From the NCBI GenBank assembly GCA_018396995.1, contig JAGTQB010000011.1, positions 1 to 42,074 of the forward strand: a DNA stretch of 42,074 nucleotides, in the 5' to 3' direction. The stretch's first letter is position 1; each line of letters opens with the position of its first letter. Origin of the DNA: Candidatus Bathyarchaeota archaeon. GTDB lineage: Archaea > Thermoproteota > Bathyarchaeia > Bathyarchaeales > DTEX01. The notes under the pieces were generated by a model. The model worked only from the letters and a program-made list of their open reading frames with translations, ran no database searches and was not told the origin of the DNA. Made by a program: the position numbers and the translations under genes. Positions 12,115 through 38,105 of the stretch are shown piece by piece.

Positions 12115-13074
12115 CTAAAAACATAATTTATGTTTTTTAAAAAATTGACCAGTAATTCTTTTTAAATGGACTACCAATCCTTCTCTGAAGAATAAGAATA
12201 AGATTATTAGGAGAATACCAAATATTAAAGTGGTTATGGGACCTAACGGCCGCAGAAGTTCAGAAATTAAGGTGAAAGCCCCGGCTCCCAGTAGGGGTCC
12301 AGTTAAGGTTCCCATTCCACCGAAGACGAGCATGACAAGAATATGGACGTCAATATTTTGGAACATTGATGGGCATATATAGAGATTATAGTAAGCGTAT
12401 AAGCCTCCCATAAACCCAAATAGAAACGAGCTAATGAAAGCTGAGAGAACTTTATATTTAACAACATTAATCCCGATGAAGGATGCCGCTATCTCGTCTT
12501 CCACAATACATCTAAACGCCACTCCTACACGCGAGTTAACAATCTTATCATATATGATTACTGTAGCGAATAGAGTTGCGATCAATAAGTAATAGTAAAC
12601 CAATTCCCTGTTAGCACCAATTAATCCTCTAAGGATATCAGATCGAATAACGATGCCTTCATCAGCGCCAGTTATATGCCGTAGGCCCAGAATCAGCTCC
12701 CCAAAAATAACTTGGAAAGATGATGTTAGAACAGCCATGAAAATAATGCTTAATCTCCTTATGGACGAAACGGCACTAATAAGGGAGCCAATTCCAGCCG
12801 AGGTTAAAGCCCCTACTGGAAGTATTATCCAAGGAGCGACGCCAAGTCTCTCCGGCAGGATAGCGGATATGTAAGAACCAATACCTACAAGTGCGCCTTG
12901 GCACAAGAATAACTGTCTTGTATGCCCGAAGATTATGTTTGAGGATAAAGTGAACATTGTGAAGAAAATGAGTAAATTTAGTAGCCTTAGCTGATAACTG
13001 TGGCTAAAAATGATGGGCAGTAAGGCGTAGACCGCCAAGATAATAACTTTCTGAACTATGCTAGCCTTTTTCAC
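12115..13074 (-). CDS. livM: Liv-type ABC importer permease, LivM family (system 1)
   Basis: A 319-residue integral membrane protein with eight to ten hydrophobic helices. The LivM family signature is present: HTRQLFLCQGALVGIGSYISA near the N-terminus, then FRCIVEDEIAASFIGINVVKYK (the cytoplasmic coupling loop) and LVMLVFGGMGTLTGPLLGAG. It pairs with the LivH-type permease upstream, whose stop it overlaps by 14 bases. It is the last gene of system 1, transcribed K-G-F-H-M on the minus strand. Annotation as a branched-chain amino acid permease is by family; related systems also carry amides, urea and aromatic acids. Confidence 0.85.
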   Translation of the reverse strand: MKKASIVQKVIILAVYALLPIIFSHSYQLRLLNLLIFFTMFTLSSNIIFGHTRQLFLCQGALVGIGSYISAILPERLGVAPWIILPVGALTSAGIGSLISAVSSIRRLSIIFMAVLTSSFQVIFGELILGLRHITGADEGIVIRSDILRGLIGANRELVYYYLLIATLFATVIIYDKIVNSRVGVAFRCIVEDEIAASFIGINVVKYKVLSAFISSFLFGFMGGLYAYYNLYICPSMFQNIDVHILVMLVFGGMGTLTGPLLGAGAFTLISELLRPLGPITTLIFGILLIILFLFFREGLVVHLKRITGQFFKKHKLCF

Positions 13075-29254: not shown

Positions 29255-29938
29255 TTACCCCCTTTCCTTAAATTCCCACTTCAAGATGTCTAAAAGCCAG
29301 TATTTCCAGTAACCATTCACTAGAACTTTCCTACTCTCAAGTATCTTTATGCCCTTCTTAAAAAGCGGCCCATCTATAACAAGCGTATGGTATTCTCCAT
29401 ACTCGCCACACATGTCGAAATCTCGTTTACCCTTGAGCTCCTTTAGCTCTTTCAGAAAATTTTCATCAATTTTTCTCCCCAGCCACTCCGACCCAAACAG
29501 ATCAGCTTTAACATTAACTACGATTGCTTCAAAGCCAACATTCATAAACTCTCTTAATACTTGCTCCGGATTCATACCCCAAAGCGGCTCTAATGGCGTA
29601 ATGCCAACCTCACCACATACTCGGTTAACCCAACCAAGATGATCCCTAACATGAATATCCCCAAAAACCATGCCCTCCACACCAAATTTTTTCAGTTCAG
29701 TTAAAGTAGCCTTAAATACGTCTTCATATGTGTCCCAAAAAACCTCCCTCTGGATTAAGGGAACCCCAATTGCCTGAGACTGCGCAGCAACCAAGTTTGG
29801 GTTCAGTCCATGGAAGGCGCATCTATCCCTATAGACGAAATTTATGAGGTATAGAACCCTAAAACCTCTCTGTATCGCCTTATAACATGCTAAGCAGCTA
29901 TCTTTACCGCCGCTCCACGATGCTACAACATTTCGCAT
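29255..29938 (-). CDS. Dph6/ATP-pyrophosphatase (PP-loop) family protein in the B12 cluster
   Basis: A 227-residue PP-loop ATPase with S9-G-G-K-D-S14 at the N-terminus, FGDIHVRDHLGWVNRVCGEVGI in the middle and CGEYGEYHTLVIDGPLF near the C-terminus. These are the phrases of the diphthine-ammonia ligase (Dph6) family. Such enzymes adenylate a carboxylate and replace AMP with ammonia. Many archaea carry several paralogues, and only one can be the diphthamide enzyme. Its place between an AsnB-like gene and the cobS-cobY pair, in the B12 uptake operon, suggests this copy acts on a corrinoid or its building blocks; that is inference. GGAGGT sits well before the ATG. Confidence 0.75.
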   Translation of the reverse strand: MRNVVASWSGGKDSCLACYKAIQRGFRVLYLINFVYRDRCAFHGLNPNLVAAQSQAIGVPLIQREVFWDTYEDVFKATLTELKKFGVEGMVFGDIHVRDHLGWVNRVCGEVGITPLEPLWGMNPEQVLREFMNVGFEAIVVNVKADLFGSEWLGRKIDENFLKELKELKGKRDFDMCGEYGEYHTLVIDGPLFKKGIKILESRKVLVNGYWKYWLLDILKWEFKERG

Positions 29939-29956
29939 TATAATCTGACCTCCACG

Positions 29957-30919
29957 TTAAATTGGGTATGCCCCGCATGTCCGACAGTATATGGCTTCAG
30001 CCGCAACGTTTGATCTACAGTAGGGGCACACTTTGCCATTCAAATCAATCGGACGGGGAGTACCAACAACCGACCTATAAACCTCGTAGTAGAAGAGTTG
30101 CTCCTTACTCTTAATTAATACGCCATCCTTCTCAAGGTACTCACGTCTCTTACCCTCAAACTCAATATCTGAGATTCTTCGGTCAAAGAGTTCTGGCAGG
30201 ATGGCTGTTCCCGAGCCACCTTCTATGGGCATTTTATCCCTCCATAAGATCTCATCTGGCAAAATACCTTCAAAGGATTTGCGGAGAATCCACTTTCCAT
30301 AAACCTTCCCCTTTTCACGCCGAACCTTATACTTTGAGTTAAGACTCATTGCAAATGACTTGACTTCTGGATCGAGGAACGGTAGTTTTATTTCTAAGCC
30401 TAAAGCTCCCGCCAAGTCTATTGATGAGAAGTGCATTGTATTCCATAGTTTCTGTAGTGCCGAGTTTAATTCTTCTTCCCCCAGGTTAAAAAGAAAACTG
30501 TATCCAGCGAAGAGCTCATCACATCCGTCGCCCGTCATAATGCTGCTTACTCCATGCTCCTTAGCCACTTTTAAGCCCACATAGATGACCACACTATTGC
30601 GCACCTCCATTGGGTCAAACGACTTCTCAATCTCAATTACTCTTTTAATGGCTTCCTGGAGTTCATGTTCATCAAAGCAGTGGATTATGTGCTTAAGCCG
30701 CAGCTTCGAGGAGAGCATGCTTGCATAATTAATATCTGGTGCTGGCGCACCATCAAAACCAATAGTAAAAGCTTTAAGAGAGACATGTCTCGACGCCAAT
30801 GCTGCTAGAATACTTGTGTCCAGTCCTCCAGAGAGTAAAATCCCCTCTGACAAATTTCTCTTAACAGCTTCTTCCAATAAGGCTAAAACCTTAGAACATA
30901 TTTCGCTTATTTCATCCAT
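29957..30919 (-). CDS. Stand-alone asparagine-synthetase-type domain with C-terminal zinc ribbon
   Basis: A 320-residue protein. It corresponds to the synthetase half of AsnB: PP-loop L-S30-G-G-L-D-T-S36, SIMTGDGCDELFAGYSFLF (the family's GDGxDELFxGY motif) and DLAGALGLEIKLPFLDPEV. The N-terminal glutaminase domain that provides ammonia in AsnB is missing altogether, so free ammonia or another donor must be used. The last 25 residues add a zinc ribbon (VCPYC...YCRTC). It overlaps the btuD stop by 13 bases and precedes the Dph6-like gene by 18. The location argues for an amidation or adenylation step on corrinoids rather than asparagine synthesis. Confidence 0.8.
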   Translation of the reverse strand: MDEISEICSKVLALLEEAVKRNLSEGILLSGGLDTSILAALASRHVSLKAFTIGFDGAPAPDINYASMLSSKLRLKHIIHCFDEHELQEAIKRVIEIEKSFDPMEVRNSVVIYVGLKVAKEHGVSSIMTGDGCDELFAGYSFLFNLGEEELNSALQKLWNTMHFSSIDLAGALGLEIKLPFLDPEVKSFAMSLNSKYKVRREKGKVYGKWILRKSFEGILPDEILWRDKMPIEGGSGTAILPELFDRRISDIEFEGKRREYLEKDGVLIKSKEQLFYYEVYRSVVGTPRPIDLNGKVCPYCRSNVAAEAIYCRTCGAYPI

Positions 30920-32187
30920 ATCTTCTCCCGCTCCATTCTATCCAGCAGAAGCATGAGCTCACTACGATCTTTAATGAATATTGCACCCCTATTGCTGAGT
31001 TCTAAGAAATATTTACGGGCTTCACCACCAGTGAAATCTCTCTTCTCAATGGGCTCCTCATTTATGATGCATACATGAACGCCTTTTTCTAAGGCTTTCA
31101 AGGCTACCTCCAGGTTCCTTAGGTTACCACGTCCAAAGGGAACCGAAGTGACTACTACGACATCCGCGCCACTCGCCATCTCCAGGTTAGCCTTATAGTT
31201 TTCATCGGTTATTGGCGAGAATGGTGCCTCGCTTACGACTGGTATTTTCAACAATTGCGCAGTTTCATAGTCCGTGTCTAGGACGTTAAGGACCCCGGCG
31301 GTAACCCTATACCCATTCTCTATAAGAGACTTCATTAAAGCGCTTCCCGTCCCAGCCCCACATATTAAGTGAATGGAGAGACTCCTCCCTTTAGCTAAAG
31401 TAGGTTTAATAGAGGATACTGGAATTACGTAAAGAGAGTTTGTTAAAGGATGCTTTTTGACAATAACATCCACATTAAAGACTTTCTTAATATTCTCGCT
31501 GGTTAATACATTCTCTACGCTTCCTATAGAGACTATTCTTCCATCTTTTAGCAGGATTAGGGAGTCACAGTATCGTGCAGCTAGGTTGAAGTCATGAAAG
31601 ACTGCTAGGGCTATTAACCCGTTTTTCACGCAGAGTTCTTTTAGGAGATCCATTACCTCGAGCTGGCTGTTGATGTCCAAGTGCGTGGTCGGCTCATCTA
31701 ATAATAGAACCTTTGGTTCCTGAGCCAACGCACGTGCAATCATGACTCGTTGTCTCTCACCACCACTTAGCTCATTAATCCACCTTTCAGCCAGATGCCA
31801 AGTATTCGTCATCTCCATAGCCCTCCTCGCTACCGCTAAATCCTTTTCATCCTCTAACTTAAAGCGCCCAAGGTGGGGGTGTCTACCCATGAGAACTACT
31901 TCAAGTGCAGTAAAATTGAAGCTTAAGCTAGAGCTCTGGGGTACAACAGCAATATTCTTAGCGACTTCCCGGCTACTCATGCTAAAGAGCTCTACCTCAT
32001 CCAAGTATACTGCGCCAACCCTCGGCTTCAGCGTCCTACTAATAGTCCTCAACAACGTTGTTTTCCCAGAACCATTTGGCCCAAGTAGACCTATAAACTC
32101 CCCAGATTTGATGGTGAAGCTCACGTTCTCCAGCACCTTAACAGATCCATAGTAGCAGTCGACGCCGCAGATTCTTAAGACCACCAT
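30907..32187 (-). CDS. btuD: Corrinoid ABC importer ATPase with extra C-terminal Rossmann-like domain
   Basis: A 426-residue protein. Residues 1-250 are a FecCD-partner ABC ATPase: Walker A GPNGSGKTT at 36-44, signature LSGGE at 140-144, Walker B LLLDEP at 161-166 and VFHDFNLAARYCD with the switch His. Residues about 270-426 form a second domain starting LSIHLICGAGTGSALMKSLI, with strands GYRVTAGVLN, VVVVTSVPFG and VHVCIINEEP, which looks like a nucleotide- or cofactor-binding Rossmann fold. Standard BtuD ends near 255. The extra domain is not the CbiZ amidohydrolase known from other B12 loci. It is third in btuF-btuC-btuD. Confidence 0.88.
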   Translation of the reverse strand: MVVLRICGVDCYYGSVKVLENVSFTIKSGEFIGLLGPNGSGKTTLLRTISRTLKPRVGAVYLDEVELFSMSSREVAKNIAVVPQSSSLSFNFTALEVVLMGRHPHLGRFKLEDEKDLAVARRAMEMTNTWHLAERWINELSGGERQRVMIARALAQEPKVLLLDEPTTHLDINSQLEVMDLLKELCVKNGLIALAVFHDFNLAARYCDSLILLKDGRIVSIGSVENVLTSENIKKVFNVDVIVKKHPLTNSLYVIPVSSIKPTLAKGRSLSIHLICGAGTGSALMKSLIENGYRVTAGVLNVLDTDYETAQLLKIPVVSEAPFSPITDENYKANLEMASGADVVVVTSVPFGRGNLRNLEVALKALEKGVHVCIINEEPIEKRDFTGGEARKYFLELSNRGAIFIKDRSELMLLLDRMEREKIWMK

Positions 32188-32199
32188 AGAGCATCGCCT

Positions 32200-33288
32200 C
32201 TACATTAAAGTTCTCCCGCTCTTTATTAGCAGGTATATGAAGAATGGTGCACCAAGCATTGCAGTCACTATACCAGCTGGGAGCACAATCGGTCTCAGGA
32301 TGGTTCTTGCAACTGTATCGCAGAGCACGAGGAGCGAGGCTCCGAAGAGGGCTGACGATGGAATCAATATACGGTGATCTGGGCCAACTAGGATTCTCAT
32401 CATGTGAGGCACAACGAGGCCGATGAAGCCTATAATGCCGCTCATTGAAACCGCAACAGCGGTTACCAATGAGGCTAGAATGAGCAGGCGCTTCCTTAAC
32501 GCCTCAACTTCAACGCCGAGATGTCTCGCCTCCTCGTCACCGAGGAGCATCACATTTAAATCCCTAGCGAACGTATAAATTAACGCAGAGGTTAGTAATA
32601 TCACTGGAGCTGCCACGTAAATATACTCCCATCTACTTATTGGGAAGCCGCCGAAAAGCCAGCTAAATGCGGCATGCACACCCTCATCGGCAATAGCCAT
32701 CATAAGGGAGATTAATGCAGAGAAAAAGCTGCTTACTGCTATCCCTGCGAGAATCAGCCTTAAGATGGGGATGCCGAAACCTGTTCTCGCTATGCTGTAG
32801 ACTAAGAAGAGAGTTAGCATTGCAAATATGAAGGCCATCAATGGTATTGCGCAGAAAAGACCGAGCTGTGATAGCCCAACCCCTAAAACAATCACTAACG
32901 TAGCTCCGAAGCCGGCTCCAGAGGCAACTCCAAGCATGTAGGGATCCGCCATAGGGTTCCTGAAGACACATTGGAAGATAGTACCCGCAATTGATAAGGC
33001 GACGCCAACAAGCGCGGCCGAGAGAACCCGCGGAAACCTAATCTGGAGAACAGCCCCCTCCTCCAGCGGAGTCCAACATTTGTTGACCATACCACCTATC
33101 AGAGGAATCTGGCGAAGAATTATCCCAAAAACTTTTCCTGCATCTATCTGCGCTGGGCCTATAGAAGATGCGAAAACCATAGAGAGCAATAATAAAATGA
33201 GGAGGGAGAGGGTTATGAAAGCCCACTTAGCATACCTCTTCAAGTACTTTTCCTCAATGCTAGCAGAGCTTTTTTCGCTGTGCATCAC
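32200..33288 (-). CDS. btuC: Corrinoid ABC importer permease, FecCD family
   Basis: A 362-residue membrane protein with about ten helices. VLQIRFPRVLSAALVGVALSIAGTIFQCVFRNPMADPYMLGVASGAGFGA is the FecCD/BtuC signature, and MSGIIGFIGLVVPHMMRILVGPDHR is the coupling-loop region for BtuD. It begins with GTG (33288) or the next ATG (33285), the first giving a GTGA overlap with the btuF stop. Assignment to corrinoids instead of iron siderophores rests on the flanking cobS, cobY and cobZ genes. Confidence 0.9.
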   Translation of the reverse strand: MMHSEKSSASIEEKYLKRYAKWAFITLSLLILLLLSMVFASSIGPAQIDAGKVFGIILRQIPLIGGMVNKCWTPLEEGAVLQIRFPRVLSAALVGVALSIAGTIFQCVFRNPMADPYMLGVASGAGFGATLVIVLGVGLSQLGLFCAIPLMAFIFAMLTLFLVYSIARTGFGIPILRLILAGIAVSSFFSALISLMMAIADEGVHAAFSWLFGGFPISRWEYIYVAAPVILLTSALIYTFARDLNVMLLGDEEARHLGVEVEALRKRLLILASLVTAVAVSMSGIIGFIGLVVPHMMRILVGPDHRILIPSSALFGASLLVLCDTVARTILRPIVLPAGIVTAMLGAPFFIYLLIKSGRTLM

Positions 33289-34745
33289 CGAGCGCCCCTC
33301 ACCCGCCTATACGCTGCATATGCGCCAACAAACGCTAAAGATGCTACAGCCACTAATGATAACACGAATATCCAAAGCGGTATTGGCTGCTCCCAGGGGG
33401 GTAGCTGCGGCGCACTCTCCCCCATCAGCGCAAAGTAACCTAAGTGCATAACTGTGGACTCAACTAAGTTAGTCTCCTTGCTTAAAGCACTATTAAGGGC
33501 AACCCACTTTCCGCCCTTCTCGTCCCATAGGTAGATCTTAAGCGAGTCCTCGCTTACCCCCAGCGCTCGAAGCTGCTCCTCACTATAATAGACCCTTAAG
33601 ATGTAGACTAGACCCTCCGGGACACTGCAATCAACGTCTATATAGCTCCCCACAAGCAACTTATTGGGCGGGGCCTCTGGGCCAGTCCGCGATAATGTAA
33701 CCATTAATATGCAGCTGCTTGCAGCCTTAACTACAAGGACATCGAGATCCATTACACCAGTAACTTTAAAGGATTGGATTCCAGTCCTCAGCAGAGTCTC
33801 ATTCACTAGAAAAGTGAACGTCTTCGCACCACCAAAGAGATCTGGGTGGAGAATCTTTGCAAGGGCCTCTAAGCCTTCAATTATTCGCGGTCCAGGTCTA
33901 TGGAATAGGTTCTCGTCAAGCAGATACACGGCTCCTTTAGTGACGGCGGCAATTCTATCCCAGCCAGGGCGCTTCTTAAAGTCTTCAAGCGTAGCATAAT
34001 GCATATAGCCGTAGAGACTTATGATCACATCTGGGTTTCTAGCAATAACCTCTTCATCAGTCGTCTGAACCCACTCAGCGGCAGCGTCCCCAAATGCGTT
34101 AACTCCCCCAGCTAACTCAATCATTTGGTGGCCCCACGTGTTTGGGCCAAACGTCCATGGCGGCGGATACCATGACTCAATGTAAACTTTCGGTTTAGCT
34201 ATAACTTGGCTAATCTTACTCTTAATTTCATTGATCCGTTGGCTTAAAGTTGACGCAAGCGCCTCCGCTTCCCGAGTTTTACCAGTCGCGGTGCCAAGCA
34301 ACCTTATGTCCTTAATTACATCTTCGATGGTTTTGGGGTGAAGCGCTATTACTGTTAAGCCTAGATTTGAGAGTGTTTCTACAGTTGGGTCCCATGGCCC
34401 CCAATGATAATATACTACAAGGTCTGGATTTAGGGCTATGATCTCCTCTGGGTCCGGCGTCATGACCTTGCTAATTTTCTGTTTAGCAATGACCTCTGGG
34501 GGGTAATCTGAATATTTGTCAACGGCAATTATTCTATCGGCGAGACCTAGCGCACAAAGTATTTCAGTACAGGATGGACCTATCGACACAATCCTCTCAG
34601 AGCTCATTATAGTTACTGTTCTCCCAAGATCGTCAATAACCGTCACTGGCTGAGACGACACAGCAACCTCCACGAACCCCATAACGAAAACCATTATCAT
34701 AACCGCAATTAAGCACAAAGAAATTGCCTCTTTAATCTTTTTCAT
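33285..34745 (-). CDS. btuF: Corrinoid-binding protein of the BtuFCD importer, with C-terminal anchor
   Basis: A 486-residue secreted protein. Residues 1-30 are a signal peptide. About 35-290 are a helical-backbone metal-receptor domain: VIDDLGRTVTIMSSERIVSIGPSCTEILCALG, then NPDLVVYYHWGPWDP, and EVIARNPDVIISLYG. About 300-445 are an additional beta-rich domain (VYILRVYYSEEQLRALGVSEDSLKIYLWD), and a membrane helix (IPLWIFVLSLVAVASLAFVGAY) with a basic tail anchors it. BtuF in bacteria is about 250 residues, so the extra domain and anchor are an archaeal elaboration. GGTGGGAGG precedes the ATG; a perfect palindrome lies in the promoter. Confidence 0.88.
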   Translation of the reverse strand: MKKIKEAISLCLIAVMIMVFVMGFVEVAVSSQPVTVIDDLGRTVTIMSSERIVSIGPSCTEILCALGLADRIIAVDKYSDYPPEVIAKQKISKVMTPDPEEIIALNPDLVVYYHWGPWDPTVETLSNLGLTVIALHPKTIEDVIKDIRLLGTATGKTREAEALASTLSQRINEIKSKISQVIAKPKVYIESWYPPPWTFGPNTWGHQMIELAGGVNAFGDAAAEWVQTTDEEVIARNPDVIISLYGYMHYATLEDFKKRPGWDRIAAVTKGAVYLLDENLFHRPGPRIIEGLEALAKILHPDLFGGAKTFTFLVNETLLRTGIQSFKVTGVMDLDVLVVKAASSCILMVTLSRTGPEAPPNKLLVGSYIDVDCSVPEGLVYILRVYYSEEQLRALGVSEDSLKIYLWDEKGGKWVALNSALSKETNLVESTVMHLGYFALMGESAPQLPPWEQPIPLWIFVLSLVAVASLAFVGAYAAYRRVRGAR

Positions 34746-34757
34746 TTCCTCCCACCT

Positions 34758-34778
34758 TTGGATGGATTATCCATCCAA
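34758..34778. promoter_or_regulatory. 21-bp perfect palindrome in the btuF promoter (candidate operator)
   Basis: TTGGATGGAT, a central T, then ATCCATCCAA. On the minus strand an A-rich BRE plus TTTATTAAT (about 34783-34795) is the likely TATA box. The palindrome then lies between the box and the ribosome site, over the predicted transcription start. That is a classic place for an archaeal repressor. It may also affect the divergent cobZ gene, about 60-70 bases away. Confidence 0.7.
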
Positions 34779-34837
34779 CGTATTAATAAACTTTTTCCTA
34801 AAAATTTTTATGTAAACATTCATTACAAGCGGGTGAG

Positions 34838-35317
34838 GTGAAGTTGTTGCTCCTTAAGTATCTTGAGGAGAGGGGGATCACCCTCAAGGATCTTATTGAT
34901 ACCGCTTTGGAGCTCTTTATTCCTCATCCCGGCGTGGAGACTAAGGAGAGAGCTGCTGAGATACTTAGGGAGGAGCTCTTGGATGCACTATCAGATGTTA
35001 ATGTCTCCTGCCTAATTGTCGCCTGCTTTCGCTTAGAAGAGGATGCTAAGTTGGGCTTAGTTCCGGGTCTATCGAAGGAGAGATTTCTTGGGCGTCCTGG
35101 GCTGGTGGCAGATGAGCTGCTTGGGATGACAATAGCATGTTATATTGCGGGAGCGAGGGGGATTTTTGAGTTCATAAGGTTCGATCAGACTAAGCCAGGA
35201 ATTTTGAGTAAGCTGGGTCCTATTACTAATGATGCAATTGGCGGACTGGTCGCTGGCGCATCATCAAACATGTATACACGAGCCTTCAGAGAACACAGTC
35301 AACTTACACGTGGATAA
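34838..35317 (+). CDS. cobZ: Alpha-ribazole phosphatase, CobZ type (PgpA-like)
   Basis: A 159-residue protein of the PgpA/CobZ family: GLVPGLSKERFLGRPGLVADELLGMTIACYIAGARGIFEFIRFDQTKPG and GPITNDAIGGLVAGASSN are the conserved acidic core. In archaea CobZ removes the phosphate from alpha-ribazole-5'-phosphate or cobalamin-5'-phosphate, the last step after CobS. PgpA proper would act on phosphatidylglycerophosphate; gene context (divergent from btuFCD, with cobS and cobY in the same cluster) favours CobZ. The start is uncertain: GTG 34838, TTG 34844 or TTG 34847. GAGGTGA at 34835-34841 best serves TTG 34847. Confidence 0.8.
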   Translation: MKLLLLKYLEERGITLKDLIDTALELFIPHPGVETKERAAEILREELLDALSDVNVSCLIVACFRLEEDAKLGLVPGLSKERFLGRPGLVADELLGMTIACYIAGARGIFEFIRFDQTKPGILSKLGPITNDAIGGLVAGASSNMYTRAFREHSQLTRG

Positions 35318-36134: not shown

Positions 36135-38042
36135 CTACGTTTTTGGTTTTCTTTTAACCTTGATTGCCATGTAACTGGCGGCTACAATTACAATAATTAC
36201 TATTATGGCTATTATAATCATCTGTTCTATTGATATCACTGGTGCAATTGGCGGCATTTCTGGCGGTGGCGCTGTTGGAGGAGTTGTTGGAGGCGCAGTA
36301 GGTGGCTGCTCAGCTGGCGGCGCGGTGGGTGGCTTCAAACCGATCGGGATAAGCTCATGCGTTATTAATGGTCTTGATGGCTGCGGGAAACCAAATGCCG
36401 GGGTCATTGTTGAGTGTTCCGGATTCCAGTTGGTCAAAACATCTGTTCTATACGCCAATATCCAGAAGGGATAGAAGGCTAGGCAGATTGTAGGTAGATG
36501 ATCCTTATATATTCTAATTATTTCTTTGACGTCCTCCACAAGGTCAGCATAGTTTAGCCTTCGCAGGGCCCTATGACATAGCTCGCTAACCCGCTCAGCA
36601 ACTTCAGGATCTGTTTGATCCCAACCGGTAGCCGCCACTTGGGATAAACCTACAGAGGGCAACAGGTAATTAAAGACTTGGTTATACCATGGCTCCGGAT
36701 ATTCAGCATATGTTCCCTGGGCAAAACCCCAGTCCTTCTGGGGAGATATGAAGGCCTGTATAAAGTATTCTATTACTTCTAGTGGCTGGTAGTGGCTTAT
36801 CTCTATTCCTATCTCCTTCAGGTAACCTATGATGGCTTCCGAGACCCTAAGCCTTACCGCCGTTATGGGAACCATCTGTATGATGAATTTAAAGCTTAAT
36901 CTTGTCCCGTTTGGTGTTTCTCTTACCCCATCCCCATCCCTGTCAATTATGCCCAATTCGTCTAGGATCCTCCTCGCCTCAGCTATGCGCTCTTCCTTTG
37001 TTTTACCCCAACCCAGCCAAGCAGCCTCAGGAACATAGAACTCTGGATAAGCAGCCATATTAACTAGACATCTATTGCCAGGCACACCGTAGCCCATAAA
37101 ATAGAACTGCGCTATTTCAAGCTTATCTATTGCCAAGTCTATGGCCTGCCTAACCTCCTTAAGATTCAACGGATAAAGCCTAGTATTAATGCATAAGACC
37201 TCTGTGGCAGATGGGCCTGGTGGGAACCAGATAGCTATATTAGGCTTTCCAACCACTTGTGGGAGCAAGTAGAATGGGTATGCGTCAGCAATATCCACAT
37301 CCCCCTTCTGGAGGAGAAGCGGGAATAATGATACGTCAGCAATGTTTCGGAGTAAAACTCCATCTATTTTTGGCATCGACTCGGTCTTCCAGTAATCTGG
37401 CCTCTTCCTGAAGTACCACCATTCTCCAGGCTTGAATGAATCGTAGATAAAGGCGCCAGATGTAACATGTTTCTTTGGGTCGTCAATAAACTCATATTTT
37501 AATGGATCCTCAACGTTTTCCCATACATGTTTTGGTAAAACGAGAGTCCCGCCGAAATCTAGGGACCACCTTGCCCAAGGCTGGGTTGTTACGAATACGA
37601 CAGTATATTTGTCAACAGCCTTAACATCACTGAGTATACCTTGTAGGCTTGATGGAAAAGCGTATTTCATTCTTAAGCTCCACGTGAATTCCACATCATA
37701 TGCCGTGAGGGGGGTTCCATCGCTCCACTTAGCCCTCTCATCTATGTGGAATACATATCTCGTGCCATTATCTAAGATTTCCCAGCTCTTAGCAACCCAC
37801 GGAATAACACTACCATTAACCAAGTGTAAGATGAGGGGCTCGCTCAATAGGTATGCAAATGTGCCAGCTAGACAAACATCACGTATTGAGTGTAGTAAGT
37901 TGAATGTGCTTGGCGGACAAGTGATAGCTATTCTGAGAACATTCTGCTCCGGAGACGCTCTGGCGTAGGGAAGAATGGATGCAGCGAAAATCATCAGCGC
38001 CAAGCTGAACGCTATAAAACATTTTGTTACAACTTTATTCAA
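36135..38042 (-). CDS. ABC transporter solute-binding protein, family 5 (peptide/nickel type), membrane-anchored
   Basis: A 635-residue secreted protein. The signal peptide covers 1-29 (ending ASILPYARA). The family 5 body holds YVFHIDERAKWSDGTPLTAYDVEFTW, GAFIYDSFKPGEWWYFRKRPDYWK and LNLKEVRQAIDLAIDKLEIAQ, all classic SBP_bac_5 phrases. A proline/threonine-rich linker (repeats of PPTAPP) and a single membrane helix with basic tail (IIIAIIVIIVIVAASYMAIKV) close it, the usual archaeal anchoring. Ligands in this family include peptides, sugars, nickel and opines. No permease or ATPase gene is adjacent, so its partners are elsewhere. GGGAGA precedes the ATG. Confidence 0.87.
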   Translation of the reverse strand: MNKVVTKCFIAFSLALMIFAASILPYARASPEQNVLRIAITCPPSTFNLLHSIRDVCLAGTFAYLLSEPLILHLVNGSVIPWVAKSWEILDNGTRYVFHIDERAKWSDGTPLTAYDVEFTWSLRMKYAFPSSLQGILSDVKAVDKYTVVFVTTQPWARWSLDFGGTLVLPKHVWENVEDPLKYEFIDDPKKHVTSGAFIYDSFKPGEWWYFRKRPDYWKTESMPKIDGVLLRNIADVSLFPLLLQKGDVDIADAYPFYLLPQVVGKPNIAIWFPPGPSATEVLCINTRLYPLNLKEVRQAIDLAIDKLEIAQFYFMGYGVPGNRCLVNMAAYPEFYVPEAAWLGWGKTKEERIAEARRILDELGIIDRDGDGVRETPNGTRLSFKFIIQMVPITAVRLRVSEAIIGYLKEIGIEISHYQPLEVIEYFIQAFISPQKDWGFAQGTYAEYPEPWYNQVFNYLLPSVGLSQVAATGWDQTDPEVAERVSELCHRALRRLNYADLVEDVKEIIRIYKDHLPTICLAFYPFWILAYRTDVLTNWNPEHSTMTPAFGFPQPSRPLITHELIPIGLKPPTAPPAEQPPTAPPTTPPTAPPPEMPPIAPVISIEQMIIIAIIVIIVIVAASYMAIKVKRKPKT

Positions 38043-38064: not shown

Positions 38065-38105
38065 TAGCCAAAATTTTATAAAACTTTTGGCTAAAAGTTT
38101 TATAA
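38065..38105. promoter_or_regulatory. Overlapping inverted repeats containing the promoter of the family 5 binding protein
   Basis: TTATAAAACTTTT (38076-38088), GGCT, AAAAGTTTTATAA (38093-38105) form a perfect 13-base inverted repeat. A second one shares it: TAGCCAAAA (38065-38073) with TTTTGGCTA (38085-38093). On the minus strand the first arm reads AAAAGTTTTATAA, a BRE/TATA-like box about 35-45 bases before the start codon at 38042. The other arm is the same box facing the other way. Confidence 0.5.

Follow-up and report, generated by a model that had tools for sequence, protein, structure and literature searches.

The stretch analysed here (the window, 42,074 nucleotides from the genome of a Candidatus Bathyarchaeota archaeon, G000; L numbers denote locus records and other G numbers related genomes) carries an operon headed by btuF on the minus strand and the divergent gene cobZ on the plus strand. 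Between them, at 34758-34778, lies the perfect palindrome that the initial annotation had described, with ten-base arms (TTGGATGGAT / ATCCATCCAA) around a single T, exactly as stated there.

The btuF-cobZ Locus

The features of the region are the following:

34758-34778, no strand: candidate operator, perfect 21-bp palindrome TTGGATGGATTATCCATCCAA (sequence, recurrence, archaeal consensus)
34783-34790, minus strand: probable TATA box of btuF, TTTATTAA (sequence; palindrome centre 15-22 bp downstream)
34746-34756, minus strand: ribosome binding site of btuF, GGTGGGAGGAA (sequence)
33285-34745, minus strand: btuF, corrinoid ABC transporter substrate-binding protein, the putatively regulated gene (Pfam Peripla_BP_2, 5.5e-34)
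32200-33288, minus strand: btuC, permease, btuF operon (FecCD, 6e-95; BtuC model, 3e-93, under cut-off)
30907-32187, minus strand: btuD, corrinoid ABC transporter ATPase, btuF operon (NCBIfam corrinoid ABC transporter ATPase, 7e-107, under cut-off)
29957-30919, minus strand: asparagine-synthetase-like PP-loop protein, fourth gene of the btuF operon (Asn_synthase, 3.6e-44)
29255-29938, minus strand: diphthamide-synthase-2-like PP-loop protein, fifth gene of the btuF operon (Diphthami_syn_2, 4.8e-55)
34838-35317, plus strand: cobZ, alpha-ribazole phosphatase, divergent (NCBIfam CobZ, 2.3e-41, slightly under cut-off)
34804-34817, plus strand: possible TATA box of cobZ, atttttatgtaaac (sequence only)

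The five minus-strand genes of the btuF operon, running from 34745 to 29255, overlap their neighbours or are separated by gaps of 12-18 bp, and btuF itself also matches the NCBIfam BtuF model at 4.6e-37, under the cut-off of that model. The same order of five genes is repeated under the same palindrome in a Methanomethylicota record (L203), and the two PP-loop genes stand alone under a palindrome of their own in L103 and L106. This PP-loop pair (29255-30919 in the window; 6038-7714 in L103; 6047-7711 in L106; 1-1373 in L203) perhaps serves a corrinoid salvage step or side-chain amidation.

Reading towards the btuF start (ATG at 34745, minus strand), the TATA box is followed by the palindrome and then by the ribosome site. 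Relative to cobZ, the palindrome is situated about 36 bp upstream of the TATA box and hence outside the core promoter, and the divergent btuF/cobZ layout recurs, with other btuF/cobZ and S-component/cobZ intergenic regions alike; on these grounds the control of cobZ by the palindrome is left as uncertain. Some open reading frames begin within the palindrome ('MDNPS...'). Leaderless initiation there was weighed but dismissed, because the TATA box would be too close, and these starts are taken as artefacts of choosing the longest ORF.

No second match with up to three mismatches occurs within the window, and 100 dinucleotide shuffles gave none. By its length alone, however, the palindrome is unremarkable, because the window holds two other long palindromes, with 10-bp arms (12117-12137) and 13-bp arms (38076-38105), and about 0.3 palindromes with arms of at least 10 bp are expected in shuffled windows; its significance lies in its recurrence. 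Of the two others, the inverted repeat at 38076-38105 (arms TTATAAAACTTTTGGCTAAAAGTTTTATAA) lies upstream of a minus-strand gene for 635 aa at 36135-38042, and the AT-rich palindrome AAAAACATAATTTATGTTTTT at 12117-12137 is found at the convergent gene ends 12078 (plus strand) and 12115 (minus strand) and is perhaps a terminator.

Recurrence of the Palindrome in B12 Promoters

Exactly three sites with up to three mismatches, the window copy included, were found in G000 (reversed pattern, none), and all of them sit in promoters of B12-related genes, namely btuFCD, an S-component with a DUF4430 protein, and a cblTS-like pair. The second site, TTGGATGGGTAATCCATCCA on contig C34 (C34:70718), runs directly into the ATG of a gene for an S-component-like membrane protein, behind which the DUF4430 gene lies. 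When the family profile of this S-component was compared with the whole PDB, CbrT (6FNP_A, E 1.9e-9) was its sole relative, which places the protein among the CbrT-type B12 S-components, with B12 as putative substrate; the function of CbrT as a B12-specific S-component has been demonstrated (PMC5997447). Vertebrate transcobalamins carry a DUF4430 domain at their C-terminus (PMC4350170), a link resting solely on the common Pfam domain since the DUF4430 profile had no significant relative in the PDB. The third site (C6:7923) lies about 30 bp upstream of the genes for an ECF S-component (PF12822) and an AIR-synthase-like protein, a pair which, from gene order and weak matches, may be read as cblT and cblS, the alpha-ribazole transporter and kinase. 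The putative CblS has a weak AIRS match alone (9e-4) and adjoins the CblT-like ECF S-component; PDB comparison of the two proteins did not confirm the names. In L170, which seems to be contig C238 of G022, the palindrome stands between divergent btuF and a cblTS pair, an arrangement that ties the first and third targets of G000 together. Weak matches in G000 with two or three mismatches, such as C23:3699, fall inside genes and were discarded as looking like chance, as were several weak sites in G022.

The same signal is widespread among relatives. Among 101 related genomes, the 17-mer core with up to two mismatches was detected in 86, with 195 near-copies versus 12 for the reversed pattern, and in an even sample of the phylum the core with at most one mismatch was present in 28 of 96 genomes. 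Relatives of the same genus carry the site at the S-component/DUF4430 operon; for btuF, genus members are without a clear orthologue. As to conservation ahead of orthologous btuF genes, on which the initial annotation had made its proposal depend, the site precedes the btuF homologue in G016, from the same family as the window genome, and in eight genomes of other families (G022, G032, G034, G038, G041, G047, G053, and G055); several genomes of family f8 have a btuF homologue with no palindrome upstream.

An exact scan with the 19-mer across 84,980 species returned 106 stretches. Among the 80 loci listed, 68 are archaeal and 12 bacterial by record title, the archaeal ones coming from Bathyarchaeota, Caldarchaeales/Aigarchaeota, Conexivisphaerales, other Nitrososphaeria, Methanomethylicota, Methanomassiliicoccales, and Methanofastidiosia. 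A B12-related or DUF4443 gene is found within 500 bp of 42 of the 68 listed archaeal loci and within 3 kb of 48; at the 12 bacterial loci, the same 3-kb range holds none. Likewise, the site lies deep inside open reading frames in 3/69 archaeal versus 5/12 bacterial cases among the matches listed.

Genes beside the Site

The families most often encountered beside the site are the S-component (47 loci), DUF4430 (44), BtuF (33), DUF4443 (20), and BtuC (19), followed by ABC ATPases (15), diphthamide-synthase-2-like proteins (13), and CobZ (5); as these target families were partly defined from site-bearing loci, the counts describe the regulon and do not test it. Independent support is provided by the BtuF, BtuC, CobN, CobZ, and CbrT matches, which come from outside models. 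Also found beside the site are CobN, the class III ribonucleotide reductase NrdD, a CobD-looking class I/II aminotransferase, and the methanol methyltransferase MtaB. Beyond btuF, the palindrome also precedes other genes of B12 uptake and salvage in a number of archaeal classes.

Control of NrdD would fit induction under B12 scarcity, because this enzyme needs no B12. In four loci from Caldarchaeales and related records (L163, L166, L216, and L224), the NrdD gene is the one immediately behind the palindrome. Two loci, L105 (8479-11469) and L096 (6154-9099), encode long BtuF-like proteins (about 980-1000 aa) with several tandem substrate-binding domains, which adjoin palindromes and cobN.

In Methanomassiliicoccales, the exact palindrome is found about 115 bp upstream of mcrB in L158, L168, and L190. 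Four loci of the same order (L311-L314) carry a winged helix-DUF4443-DUF2111 gene that starts at a two-mismatch palindrome and is transcribed divergently from an ABC ATPase gene, and it is possible that this protein regulates methyl-coenzyme M reductase. From these mcrB and DUF4443-DUF2111 palindromes, the signal may differ between lineages.

Promoter Geometry and Predicted Mode of Action

The consensus derived from 69 oriented archaeal promoters is TTGGATGGATwATCCATCCAA, with a maximum of AT content directly upstream of the palindrome. In 49 of the 55 promoters with a good TATA match, the first base of the TATA 8-mer lies 16-23 bp ahead of the palindrome centre. The usual TATA-to-start distance in archaea being about 26 bp, the palindrome fills the stretch between TATA box and start point; at btuF this spacing places it from about -18 to +3. 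The initial annotation, which had located the palindrome over the btuF transcription start, was right in setting it between the TATA box and the ribosome site, but the element mainly covers the TATA-to-start stretch and is not centred on the start. A protein bound there would hinder TFB and the polymerase, which points to a repressor, and repression by promoter occlusion is accordingly regarded as the probable mode of action.

Briefly, a dimeric repressor would bind the half-sites GGATGGAT and ATCCATCC in the TATA-to-start stretch and, with corrinoid in sufficient supply, would block TFB or RNA polymerase at the promoter of btuFCD; under corrinoid scarcity, it would release the DNA and allow the uptake genes to be expressed. 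The repressor would most likely be a winged-helix DUF4443 (PH0730-like) protein, encoded in G000 by a single copy on contig C27.

Other explanations of the palindrome itself fare poorly. If transcribed, the perfect inverted repeat could fold, and an RNA hairpin acting as an attenuator or riboswitch-like element in the btuF leader might be envisaged. However, the close TATA box puts most of the palindrome upstream of the start, where it would not be transcribed, both arms are conserved in sequence beyond mere pairing, and Rfam gave no riboswitch at gathering score in the window, L019, and L020, the three sites of G000, which bears out the view of the initial annotation that no cobalamin riboswitch is present; an RNA role is therefore very improbable. 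The shuffle expectation given above is what a functionless chance palindrome has in its favour, but it is refuted by the repeated occurrence of this very sequence in archaeal B12 promoters, which leaves it a practically negligible probability. By contrast, the earlier proposal, in which the palindrome is bound by a protein and places btuFCD in an archaeal corrinoid regulon, gains support from the recurrence at btuF and other B12 genes, and the palindrome is very probably the operator of an archaeal B12 regulon.

A Winged Helix-DUF4443 Protein as Candidate Reader

Among DNA-binding families, DUF4443 adjoins the motif most often, at 20 of the examined loci, in three arrangements and several lineages. 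Its gene lies in the same operon as the S-component and DUF4430 targets in L108, L194, and L211 (truncated in G001, of the same genus, L075), divergent from the targets of the site in L159, L191, L200, L206, L213, and L221, and directly downstream of the site in L117, L124, L131, L134, and L138, or behind cobZ in L128. Among the 19-mer matches listed, 15 of the 68 archaeal loci have a DUF4443 gene within 2.5 kb; conversely, when DUF4443 genes were picked irrespective of the motif, the palindrome was present within 1.5 kb in 7 of 30, versus none for the reversed control.

G000 has one DUF4443 gene only, on contig C27 (L140, 1498-2145, minus strand, 215 aa), whose product contains the domains PH0730-like_N (9.1e-10) and DUF4443 (PF14544, 1.2e-29) over the cut-off. 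The recognition helix, LGEGxxRTxL, is near-identical between the linked DUF4443 copies and the G000 copy. In the structure predicted for the linked protein of L194 (5469-6086, minus strand; pLDDT 90.5), a MarR/CggR-like winged helix is joined to a second domain, which matches a region of aspartyl-tRNA synthetase that we take to be the GAD insertion. Over its full length, the best PDB match of the model is PH0730 (Z 20.1, rmsd 2.5, 175 residues, 28% identity). These data make it fairly likely that DUF4443 reads the palindrome in the lineages in which the two are linked, and tip the balance slightly towards the same role in G000.

The distribution of the family is a separate matter. DUF4443 is present in 84 of the 96 phylum genomes versus 28 of 96 for the palindrome, and as the family is nearly universal in this phylum, the Thermoproteota, its co-occurrence with the palindrome cannot identify the reader. 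For that reason presence and absence (24 of 25 archaeal palindrome genomes versus 0 of 8 bacterial ones) was discarded as proof, being uninformative at such prevalence. No DUF4443 was found in the palindrome-bearing genomes G010 and G211. The family is also present in Methanomassiliicoccales. A wider proposal, somewhat doubtful and offered tentatively, is that winged helix-DUF4443 proteins are ancient archaeal tetrapyrrole- or corrinoid-sensing repressors that use one palindrome, mostly for B12 genes and, in Methanomassiliicoccales, for mcr genes.

Aside from DUF4443, in 5 of 10 loci (L142, L143, L145, L147, and L148) a palindrome-like site lies no more than 1.5 kb from a gene for a winged helix-DUF7839 protein, and the protein may be another regulator or else a target in the families where it is linked. 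As the regulator of the palindrome it was set aside, being absent from G000 and from 77 of the 101 genomes searched.

Two variants of the repressor scheme concern its reader and its signal. The operator might be read in G000 by another winged-helix protein, with DUF4443 regulating something else there: the G000 gene is unlinked, its locus (L140) having no palindrome at up to three mismatches, it adjoins a GPN-loop GTPase gene and belongs to a tree clade in which 11 of 12 sampled copies are unlinked, the family abounds in the phylum without the palindrome, and DUF7839 illustrates that further HTH genes adjoin the site. Such an outcome is nevertheless on the unlikely side, given the predominance of DUF4443 at the motif, the recognition helix common to the G000 and linked copies, and the lack of DUF7839 in G000. 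Similarly, the regulon might sense cobalt or another tetrapyrrole state and not corrinoid itself, since cobN and mcrB adjoin the motif and no recognised corrinoid-binding sequence motif was found in DUF4443. Most targets, however, serve corrinoid uptake (BtuFCD and CbrT-like) and lower-ligand salvage, a better fit to corrinoid, and NrdD fits B12 scarcity, making a cobalt or tetrapyrrole signal quite unlikely. Taken together, the scheme of a B12 operator, an occluding repressor, a DUF4443 reader, and corrinoid as the signal is judged to be likely as a whole.

Relation to Known Systems and Biological Meaning

In bacteria, B12 genes are regulated by riboswitches. To our knowledge, B12 sensing and regulation in archaea are essentially unknown, an archaeal B12 regulator having merely been postulated. 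Rodionov et al. reportedly predicted in 2003 a CBL-box upstream of B12 genes in some archaea, together with a hypothetical B12 regulator. The palindrome described here would be alike in being an archaeal DNA signal at B12 genes; most of the lineages covered here were unsequenced at that time, and a candidate regulator family is now proposed. A literature search gave no match for the term CBL-box and no mention of DUF4443, and PH0730 turned up in one paper, where a table merely lists it as the name of a family; the assignment of DUF4443 as a B12 regulator thus appears to be new.

Several characterised systems offer points of comparison. The bacterial cobalamin riboswitch likewise controls btu and cob genes and B12-independent isozymes and responds to corrinoids, but it is an RNA element, whereas the present one is a palindromic DNA site, most of which precedes the start. 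PH0730 of Pyrococcus horikoshii (PDB 2p8t) has its two-domain fold in common with the DUF4443 candidate, and the literature searched describes no operator or regulon for it. ECF-CbrT, the B12 transporter of Lactobacillus delbrueckii (6FNP), is a relative of the S-component at the second G000 site, although the archaeal CbrT-like S-component is paired with a DUF4430 protein, unlike the L. delbrueckii system. RbkR, the archaeal riboflavin regulator (cited in PMC8305020), resembles the DUF4443 candidate in combining an HTH with a second domain and in acting on vitamin genes from an operator in the DNA; in RbkR, the additional domain is the enzyme riboflavin kinase, whereas in the DUF4443 candidate it is GAD-like with no known activity.

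The operator, its regulon, and its promoter geometry are now defined across many uncultured archaeal lineages. With PH0730/DUF4443, a family with a solved structure but no function, named as the likely reader, archaeal B12 sensing becomes testable. The regulon further points to two PP-loop proteins and to the DUF4430 partners of CbrT-like S-components in archaeal corrinoid metabolism.
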